From Crocinitomicaceae bacterium (GTDB lineage: Bacteria > Bacteroidota > Bacteroidia > Flavobacteriales_D > Crocinitomicaceae): a stretch of DNA of 64,000 bases. The notes beneath the pieces are model-generated. The model worked only from the letters and a program-made list of their open reading frames with translations, made no database searches and was not told the origin of the DNA. The stretch is from contig JAJTCM010000003.1 of NCBI GenBank assembly GCA_021325675.1, forward strand, positions 496,001 through 560,000, written 5' to 3'. The position numbers were made by a program, and so were the translations under genes. Every line of letters starts with the position of its first letter. Within the stretch, counting starts at the first letter, position 1. Below are positions 3,641-16,553 of this stretch, one piece after another.

Positions 3641-3680
3641 AATAAATTCCGAGAGGTATCGCAAATTGCGATACCTCTTT
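3641..3680. repeat. Palindromic repeat unit, copy 1 (palindrome 3653..3677)
   Basis: aataaattccgaGAGGTATCGCAA-a-TTGCGATACCTCttt; perfect 12-1-12 inverted repeat. Confidence 0.9.
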
Positions 3681-3749
3681 AGCATAAATCAATTATTTTT
3701 CAACTCAAAGCCCCCTAACACATTGGTATAAAACAATTTAAATTGGAAT

Positions 3750-3789
3750 AATGAATTCCGGGAGGTATCGCAAATTGCGATACCTCTTT
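3750..3789. repeat. Palindromic repeat unit, copy 2 (palindrome 3762..3786)
   Basis: aatgaattccggGAGGTATCGCAA-a-TTGCGATACCTCttt; differs from copy 1 at 2 of 40 positions, 109 bp away. Confidence 0.9.
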
Positions 3790-3864
3790 TTGTTTAAAAT
3801 TTGGTTTTAAAGTGGATTTTAATTATATTCACTCTTATTATCAACCTTTTATAATTAACAAACA

Positions 3865-4398
3865 ATGACCAAACCCCTTATTCTACCTGATCAATTGATC
3901 ATTGAAAAAATCCATTTTATTCGTAATCAGAAAGTAATGCTCGACAGGGACCTTGCCGATCTTTTTGATGTTAAACCGATTCGTTTACGCGAACAATTAA
4001 AACGAAACCTTTCCCGTTTCCCGTCACATTTCATGTTCCAGCTAAATGACGATGAAGCAAATTTTCTTGTTGCACAAAATATCATTCCCTCAAAACATTA
4101 TTATGGTGGAACAATGCCGTATGTTTTCACGGAGCATGGCATATTACAGCTTTCCAATATTTTACGCAGCGATAAGGCGATTGCCATAAGCATTCAAATC
4201 ATTGACGTATTTATTCAAATGCGTGAAATCCTGCTTACTGACAAAAATTTACTCACTGAATTAGACAAAATCAAGCAGACAATCCATGGTCATGAAGAAC
4301 GAATGGACCTGATGTATAATTACCTTATGGAATTTGGGAAAGAACAGAAGATTGAGCGAACCCGTATTGGATATAAAAAGCAACAGCTCAACAGTTAA
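3865..4398 (+). CDS. ORF6N domain-containing (phage antirepressor-like) DNA-binding protein
   Basis: IHFIRNQKVMLDRDLADLFDVKPIRLREQLKRNLSRFPSHFMFQL...YVFTEHGILQLSNILRSDKAIAISIQIIDVFIQMRE. Confidence 0.88.
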   Translation: MTKPLILPDQLIIEKIHFIRNQKVMLDRDLADLFDVKPIRLREQLKRNLSRFPSHFMFQLNDDEANFLVAQNIIPSKHYYGGTMPYVFTEHGILQLSNILRSDKAIAISIQIIDVFIQMREILLTDKNLLTELDKIKQTIHGHEERMDLMYNYLMEFGKEQKIERTRIGYKKQQLNS

Positions 4399-14686: not shown

Positions 14687-16312
14687 ATGAAAAAACTTAT
14701 TTTTCTCTTTCTTGGAGCGTTCTTTTTGCAAGCCTGCATGAAAGGCCAGCGCGTTGACCTTGTTGTGCACAATGCTAAAATCCATACGGTGGATGAAAAT
14801 TACAACGTTCACGAAGCGATGGCGATCAAAGACGGTGAAATTGTTGAGGTGGGACCGGAACGCCAGATCCTGAACAAGTATGCCTATGATGAGGAAATTG
14901 ACGCCAACGGAAAAGATGTATATCCCGGTTTTACGGATGCACATGGACATATCCTGAGCCTGATCGACCAGCGTTTGAACCTCGATCTTTCGGGATCTAA
15001 ATCTTTCGGGGAAGTCATTTTTAAGCTGGAAAAATACGCTTCCGGCCAAAAACGCAAATTTATCGTCGGGCGCGGCTGGGACCAGGCAGTTTGGGGAACG
15101 AAAGAATTCCCGGACAACGAAAAAATCAATGCCCTTTTCCCGGATATCCCGGTTTTGCTGATCCGCGTCGATGGCCATGCAGCGTTGATCAATGATTGCC
15201 TGTACAAAAAAGCTAAGCTGGAAGGAAAAAATATCGAAGGCGGAAAAATACTGCTAAAAAACGGAAAACCTACCGGGATTATCCTTGACAACACGATCAC
15301 GGAAATCAGTAAACTGATCCCTCCGTTTACAAATCAGGAAAGACAAAAAGCTTTTCTCGAAATCCAGGAAGAATTGTTTCAATACGGGATCACAAGCGTG
15401 CACGAAGCCGGGATTGAGTTCAAAGACATTGCATTTTTTCAGTCGATGAACAAAAGCAAGCAGCTGAAATTACAGTTGAACGCAATGCTTTACCCGAGCA
15501 AGGAAAACATTGATTTTGCACAAAAAAATGGCGTTTATCACGAAAACAACCTGCTGATCCGCAGCTTTAAAGTGGTAGGTGACGGTTCACTCGGATCGCG
15601 CGGCGCATGCCTGAAACATCCGTATCACGACGATCCGCTGACACATGGTTTTTTAACGACGCCGGTGACCGAAATGCGCAAAGTGGCGGATGTTTGCCGG
15701 AAAACGGGTTACCAGATGAATACGCACGCCATCGGGGATTCTACGAACAAAGTGGTGATCGACCTGATTGCCGAAATGTATGCTTTCAAAAAAGACCACC
15801 GCTGGCGGATTGAGCACGCGCAGGTCCTGGATCCGGCGGATATTAAAAAAATGGGGGATTATGCCGTTTTTCCATCAGTTCAGCCAACGCATGCCGTGAG
15901 TGACCAGCGCTGGGCTGAAGACCGGCTTGGAAAAGAGCGTTTGAAAGGCGCTTACGCTTACCAGAGTATTTTGAACACAACAGGAATTTTTGCGCTGGGA
16001 ACTGATTTCCCGGTGGAGTCTTTCGATCCTTTTGCGACGATCCATGCGGCTGTGAAACGCAAAAACAAAGAAAATTTTCCTTCCTCCGGTTTCCTGGCTT
16101 CAGAAGCTGTTTCCCTTGAAAACTGTATCCGCGGAATGACCATCTGGCCGGCCTTTGCCTGTTTCCGGGAAAAAAGCACCGGTTCACTGGAGAAAGGTAA
16201 AGAAGCGACTTTCATTATCCTGGATTATCCGCTTACAGTTTCCGGAAATTTCAAGGAAAACTTTGCTTACATGACGTATATAAAAGGAAAAAAGGTTTAT
16301 TCAGCTGAATAA
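14687..16312 (+). CDS. Amidohydrolase (YtcJ-like), predicted lipoprotein
   Basis: FLGAFFLQAC lipobox; YPGFTDAHGHI; WRIEHAQVLDPADI; FALGTDFPVESFDPFATIHAAVKR. Confidence 0.9.
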   Translation: MKKLIFLFLGAFFLQACMKGQRVDLVVHNAKIHTVDENYNVHEAMAIKDGEIVEVGPERQILNKYAYDEEIDANGKDVYPGFTDAHGHILSLIDQRLNLDLSGSKSFGEVIFKLEKYASGQKRKFIVGRGWDQAVWGTKEFPDNEKINALFPDIPVLLIRVDGHAALINDCLYKKAKLEGKNIEGGKILLKNGKPTGIILDNTITEISKLIPPFTNQERQKAFLEIQEELFQYGITSVHEAGIEFKDIAFFQSMNKSKQLKLQLNAMLYPSKENIDFAQKNGVYHENNLLIRSFKVVGDGSLGSRGACLKHPYHDDPLTHGFLTTPVTEMRKVADVCRKTGYQMNTHAIGDSTNKVVIDLIAEMYAFKKDHRWRIEHAQVLDPADIKKMGDYAVFPSVQPTHAVSDQRWAEDRLGKERLKGAYAYQSILNTTGIFALGTDFPVESFDPFATIHAAVKRKNKENFPSSGFLASEAVSLENCIRGMTIWPAFACFREKSTGSLEKGKEATFIILDYPLTVSGNFKENFAYMTYIKGKKVYSAE

Positions 16313-16553
16313 ACCTTCCAAATCAAAACATACCTTTGTCGTTTAAAAACCAGATAAATTACGACCTAAGCATTTCGTCATTCCAGTTAAAATTCATCAA
16401 AAAAGCTGCAAGACATTCTTTAATGGATTTTAACTACATCTTTATAAACTCAAATTTCAGCTAAAAGTTACTTTGCTTTTCCCGGAAATGAATATTTGAG
16501 TATTTCTGACGAATATAACTCCCTGCTAAATGAATAATTCATCCGCAAAAAAA

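Follow-up and report, generated by a model that had tools for sequence, protein, structure and literature searches.

Palindromes that fit the predicted recognition residues of ORF6N-domain proteins lie beside or inside the genes that encode them

Operators inside genes are known from lac O2 and the gal internal operator, and the C proteins of restriction-modification systems, with their C-boxes, are autoregulators with palindromic operators. The ORF6N genes described here resemble autoregulatory factors in having a dyad-symmetric duplex site near their own gene, with bases that appear to be determined by recognition-helix residues, but they differ from the classic cases in that the main site lies in the codons of the reading domain, at one fixed place, and in that the arrangement spans phyla and apparently three domain families. 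In REP/RAYT systems, as here, palindromes flank a single gene and their sequence is matched to that gene; however, the ORF6N locus has no Y1 (HUH) transposase and no genome-wide dispersal, and what it encodes is a DNA-binding domain of the helix-based type. Rickettsia palindromic elements (RPE) are also palindromic DNA that is translated in more than one reading frame, but they occur in many unrelated genes, whereas the ORF6N palindrome occupies one fixed place in one domain family. By sequence, the protein studied here is a member of the "Bro network" of phage antirepressor-type proteins (PF10543, PF04383, PF02498), with which it shares related predicted folds. Phages, plasmids, and bacterial genomes commonly carry genes for ORF6N, KilA-N and Bro-N proteins. 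The literature searched, with most subscription papers outside it, gives no DNA target for prokaryotic proteins of these three kinds, no palindromes for ORF6N, and neither in-gene palindromes nor a recognition code for the three domains; a readable in-gene amino-acid-to-base code is undescribed there.

We analysed a window of 64 kb, the whole stretch of DNA under study, from the genome of a Crocinitomicaceae bacterium, which contains the following features.

3641 to 3680, forward strand: upstream unit 1, 40 nt, with palindrome GAGGTATCGCAAATTGCGATACCTC at 3653-3677; predicted ORF6N binding site
3750 to 3789, forward strand: upstream unit 2, 40 nt, with the identical palindrome at 3762-3786; predicted ORF6N binding site
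3865 to 4398, forward strand: ORF6N-domain gene, 177 aa, PF10543 E 4e-26; predicted reader of the palindromes
3976 to 4005, forward strand: codons of the predicted recognition helix, residues 38-47 (covariation peak at 43, 40, 39, 42; helix in the AF2 model)
4066 to 4090, forward strand: decayed in-gene site CTTGTTGCACAAAATATCATTCCCT, where relatives have ATGGTATCGCAAAATGCGATACCTT (alignment position)
4171 to 4338, forward strand: codons of a long C-terminal helix, residues 103-158 (AF2 secondary structure)

The perfect 12-1-12 palindrome GAGGTATCGCAA-A-TTGCGATACCTC is exact in both units, which differ from each other by 2 mismatches, are offset by 109 bp and both stand upstream of the ORF6N gene, just as an earlier note on this DNA had described. 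The T run that the note placed after each palindrome is uneven, with 5 T behind unit 2 and 3 T behind unit 1, and unit 2, which doubles as a terminator-like hairpin with a T tail, was the only one to score in a test for a GC-rich hairpin plus T run. The centres of units 1 and 2 lie 200 nt and 91 nt before the ORF6N start codon, and the genes around them encode a methyltransferase, the ORF6N protein and an adenine deaminase. With up to 3 mismatches allowed, the palindrome occurs only at these two places in the window and in the whole 3.57 Mb genome, and 100 dinucleotide shuffles of the window gave no match at this tolerance. A genome scan for the inner 17-mer, allowing up to 2 mismatches, brings in one further site, which has 2 mismatches (C4:1675), and neither genome scan found a second strong target. 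The note's suggestion of a dispersed, REP/RAYT-like family was rejected because the genome has two copies only, which show no dispersal and come with no transposase. Elsewhere in the window, a perfect palindrome with 13-bp arms, AAGGTTTATTCAGCTGAATAAACCTT, spans the end of an amidohydrolase-like gene, stop codon included (16292-16317), and is possibly a terminator.

The window protein is a full-length PF10543 member above the gathering score (91.5 bits against a cut-off of 27.8, covering profile positions 2-86 of 86). It matches the PADLOC family PDC-S05 (E 6e-50), whose defence role is that of a candidate, and its PHROG match is an anti-repressor. The helix of residues 38-47 is present in its AF2 model, which is of medium confidence (pLDDT 78), and the C-terminal helix is a possible dimerisation coiled coil. 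A sequence search of the PDB with this protein returned no relatives, and the Foldseek matches of the model in the PDB were weak, leaving the fold unconfirmed by any solved relative. Its viral structure matches are KilA-N and antirepressor proteins.

The exact core GGTATCGCAANTTGCGATACC was scanned in 85,462 GTDB species genomes (264 Gb) and in viral contigs, and 29 of its 36 places are inside or at most 206 bp from an ORF6N gene, which bears out the enrichment that the earlier note had asked about; two of the remaining seven sit right where the fetched sequence begins. A search of 395 genomes of the class with a degenerate palindrome pattern gave 13 places, spread over 9 genomes, and all but one of the 13 are in or beside an ORF6N gene. 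The window's own genome has seven PF10543 matches, and its other ORF6N genes have palindromes of the same kind inside and around them: L005 has three upstream with a different sequence (GGTGGTCACAA...), and L004 and L006 have theirs within the coding sequence. At C4:53540-79520 in this genome (L215, L216; fragments L009, L007), an ORF6N gene is seemingly split at its in-gene palindrome by an insert of about 26 kb, which encodes a tyrosine integrase, an AlpA-like protein, a Drt2 reverse transcriptase and its WYL partner, and a protein of 3014 aa. The palindrome at either junction is a hybrid, with one half of the TCACAA type and the other of the window's GGTATCGCA type. At L078, L082, L143, L175, L180, L187, L190-L193, L209, L304, and L307, the gene immediately before the ORF6N gene, in the same orientation, encodes a tyrosine integrase, and the two often overlap or lie within about 85 bp of each other. 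At L299, on a Treponema saccharophilum plasmid, the ORF6N gene stands between the genes of a DNA methyltransferase and a restriction specificity subunit.

A survey of PF10543 loci from 99 genomes showed that nearly every full-length gene contains a near-perfect palindrome of 25-43 bp inside its coding sequence, and that the LTxEE helix invariably precedes it and the PxxFTExG motif follows. Taking the best centre within the segment, with controls handled alike, at least 10 of 12 symmetric pairs were found in 67 of the 78 unique ORF6N genes but in just 1 of 149 control windows from the same genes, and synonymous resampling gave a mean of 7.4 pairs versus 10.7 observed. Counted over all ORF6N genes, the in-gene palindrome is present in 122/140, and in viral ones in 28/30. 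The symmetry extends to offset 13 and is at background beyond, and offsets 2 and 3 (CA...TG) are symmetric in every gene that passes the threshold. Mismatches of the G:T and A:C types are equally frequent (12 versus 14), so there is no G:U bias, which indicates duplex DNA and argues against an RNA hairpin. Depending on the gene, the same DNA core is translated in one codon phase (56 genes) or in another (11 genes), with LRSQIATS, VSQNAIPS, and EVVANCDHL as example translations. The window gene's own segment reaches a best symmetry of just 8/12. In L307, L059, L064, and L006 the segment carries two palindromic modules in tandem and in frame, and where the older module looks decayed the newer one suits the recognition residue that the protein has now, which looks like a switch of specificity through module addition. 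In a comparison of sister genomes for empty sites, synteny was too diverged.

We compared the palindrome bases with every protein column of the family (window residue numbering) and found that, outside the stretch coded by the palindrome itself, residues 43, 40 and 39 are the most strongly associated, followed by 42; they lie in the predicted recognition helix, which is coded about 30 codons upstream of the in-gene palindrome. Gln43 goes with A in 46 of 47 genes, Glu43 with G in 46 of 46, Arg or Lys43 with C in 21 of 23, and Lys39 with G in 56 of 58; residues 40 and 43 taken together give CG for RE (45/45) and TC for NK (5/5). Columns between the helix and the palindrome have covariation near zero, and since linkage would make them covary, shared ancestry was rejected as the cause of the code. 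It is also opposed by a quick maximum-likelihood tree, which still shows concordant switches although the helix and palindrome columns had been left out of it. On this tree the residue-43 class changes 39 times, the independent pairs on supported branches are all concordant (Glu/Gln 7/7, Gln/Arg-Lys 5/5, and a further 3/3), and for residue 39 the independent pairs agree 7.3 versus 0. Ten ORF6N genes were collected later, nine of them plasmid-borne and one from a phage contig, and they represent Bacteroidota, Pseudomonadota, Fusobacteriota, Campylobacterota, and Bacillota (two more fetched loci were unparsed); residue 43 fits in all ten, three of whose sites have a symmetry below 10/12. By these patterns of covariation, the bases of the site are predicted near-deterministically by residues of the ORF6N protein. 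For the window protein, the prediction from I39, R40, R42, and E43 is A, C and G at offsets 7, 5 and 4 respectively, in the half-site A-T-C-G-C-A-A, and Ile39, Arg40, and Glu43 predict exactly its two upstream palindromes.

Many ORF6N genes also have copies beside them. Within 500 bp of ORF6N genes we found 19 palindromes of the same kind in 76 kb, against none in 155 kb of background; the centres of upstream copies gather between 20 and 111 nt ahead of the start codon, and those of downstream copies between 14 and 74 nt past the stop. The code of the neighbouring protein is fitted by 38 of 52 flanking copies (permutation mean 23, p 5e-5), including 9 of 9 downstream ones, while 14/52, about a quarter, do not fit; some of these loci had been found through the palindrome pattern, and 17/29 fit among loci picked independently of it. 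Three survey genes, those of the window, L005 and L092, have flanking copies without an in-gene copy, and the flanks match in all three, with two fitting upstream copies for the window gene (I39 R40 E43 to A, C, G), three for L005 (Gln43) and one for L092. The single Gln43 gene with a G-type in-gene site, L145, has a downstream copy that fits. Two Sediminibacterium species have kept the upstream and in-gene palindromes intact amid diverged sequence, and a downstream copy is present in one species and absent from its sister. A separate observation comes from an Omnitrophota MAG (L156, 2800-3100), in which four palindromes with four different cores stand in a row upstream of one ORF6N gene.

KilA-N and Bro-N genes had been intended as negative controls and were dropped as such, as in-gene palindromes were found there too, in 9/10 KilA-N and 21/29 Bro-N loci in the class and, at 10/12 or better, in 51/58 KilA-N and 31/35 Bro-N viral genes. 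These loci, which show signs of covariation with upstream residues, are as follows.

L341-L350: KilA-N in-gene core CGAATTCG with variable arms, at a fixed place
L312-L339: Bro-N in-gene palindromes of two kinds, at fixed places
L356-L469: viral KilA-N and Bro-N loci with in-gene palindromes at fixed places

The best covarying residues not coded by the palindrome lie 27-32 residues before its centre in KilA-N, much as in ORF6N, and 15-22 before it in Bro-N, but the effective numbers are small (37 and 31), and this covariation is therefore a lead only.

The earlier note had suggested that the ORF6N protein could bind the upstream pair as operators, and we consider this probable, together with autoregulation; the linkage of the palindromes with ORF6N genes and the prediction of their bases from the protein's residues support the proposal, and the operator function itself stays a prediction. 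A dyad-symmetric duplex site stands at the regulator's own gene beyond chance, and the evidence, all of it covariation (the code, the tree and the later-collected genes included), points to recognition residues as what specifies its bases. Because the residues of the window protein predict both upstream palindromes exactly, these are very probably the sites that the protein recognises and operators are the most likely reading, and a dimeric regulator with dedicated sites at its own gene makes autoregulation the simplest one. The ORF6N linkage, the duplex-level symmetry and the amino-acid/base code are observations; from them we infer physical binding, a dimer and repression. The protein would most likely bind as a dimer held by the long C-terminal helix, each recognition helix (38-47) reading one half-site through residues 39, 40, and 43. 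The standard site of the family would be the one inside the gene, among the codons of the DNA-binding domain, to which many genes add flanking copies, and in the window gene it has decayed and the upstream pair is left. Binding near the promoter, together with an in-gene roadblock to RNA polymerase, could then produce negative autoregulation that travels with the gene. The upstream copies that do not fit the neighbouring protein, and the four different palindromes at L156, speak against this reading. Simple autoregulation does not explain why the in-gene site is near-universal and the promoter site optional; the position suggests a roadblock, or a site that is inseparable from the gene.

In a serious rival reading, the site inside the gene is an identity tag: by binding it the protein would recognise other copies of the gene, for example on an incoming phage or plasmid, for exclusion or defence, with regulation being secondary. 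The PDC-S05 listing as a candidate defence family, the phage anti-repressor match and the integrases nearby make copy recognition worth considering, as do the presence of ORF6N genes on phages and plasmids, the near absence of other targets, and the near-universal site inside the gene, which would not be lost through promoter exchange. However, a 177-aa protein without an effector domain, among housekeeping neighbours in the window, speaks against it, and we regard it as unlikely. We are somewhat less doubtful, though still tentative, about a broader proposal that ORF6N, KilA-N and Bro-N genes are self-addressed, each with an in-gene palindrome read by its own domain that serves as a tag to silence or exclude copies and not merely as an operator. 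Gene and address would then move, mutate and switch specificity together; in L307, for instance, the switch would have taken the form of a fresh palindromic module next to an old one in decay.

The remaining readings leave the residue-base code unexplained. In favour of the palindromes being recombination or attachment sites of tyrosine-integrase elements is the split gene in the window's own genome, with its hybrid palindromes at both junctions and its integrase and Drt2 locus in about 26 kb, and 16 of 180 ORF6N loci have an integrase within 1.5 kb, in many cases immediately ahead of the ORF6N gene. Yet this is the one such split found; the other integrase-ORF6N pairs have no second end nearby in a search of integrases and whole contigs, a test for chimeras of N- and C-terminal halves gave no clear case (the best pairs were fragments), and relatives of the integrases are rarely near palindromes, so we consider the idea improbable. 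Slightly less probable still is a palindromic element that moves or copies itself, with some likeness to REP/RAYT or RPE, and inserts in or near ORF6N genes. Tandem in-frame modules in L065, L066, L090, L180, and L307, one frame-breaking copy in L085 and the variable downstream copy in Sediminibacterium fit such an element, and copies may be gained, but it is not dispersed, has no transposase, and palindrome-less genes show no empty site. The window palindromes do form a stable hairpin (-20.3 kcal/mol, z -6.3), terminator-like in unit 2, but RNA hairpins acting as intrinsic terminators or mRNA structures are very hard to reconcile with a symmetry that holds up to the centre, with the lack of G:U bias and with bases that covary with a protein helix; the capacity to form hairpins may be a side effect of the palindrome.

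If the operator reading and its code hold, the target of most such proteins could be read from their own genes, with a code that is near-deterministic for ORF6N, and DNA recognition by ORF6N, KilA-N and Bro-N proteins would be testable at once. The family would also offer a large natural set for the rules of protein-DNA recognition, in which the coding sequence would be selected twice over, for the protein it encodes and for the DNA site that this protein binds.
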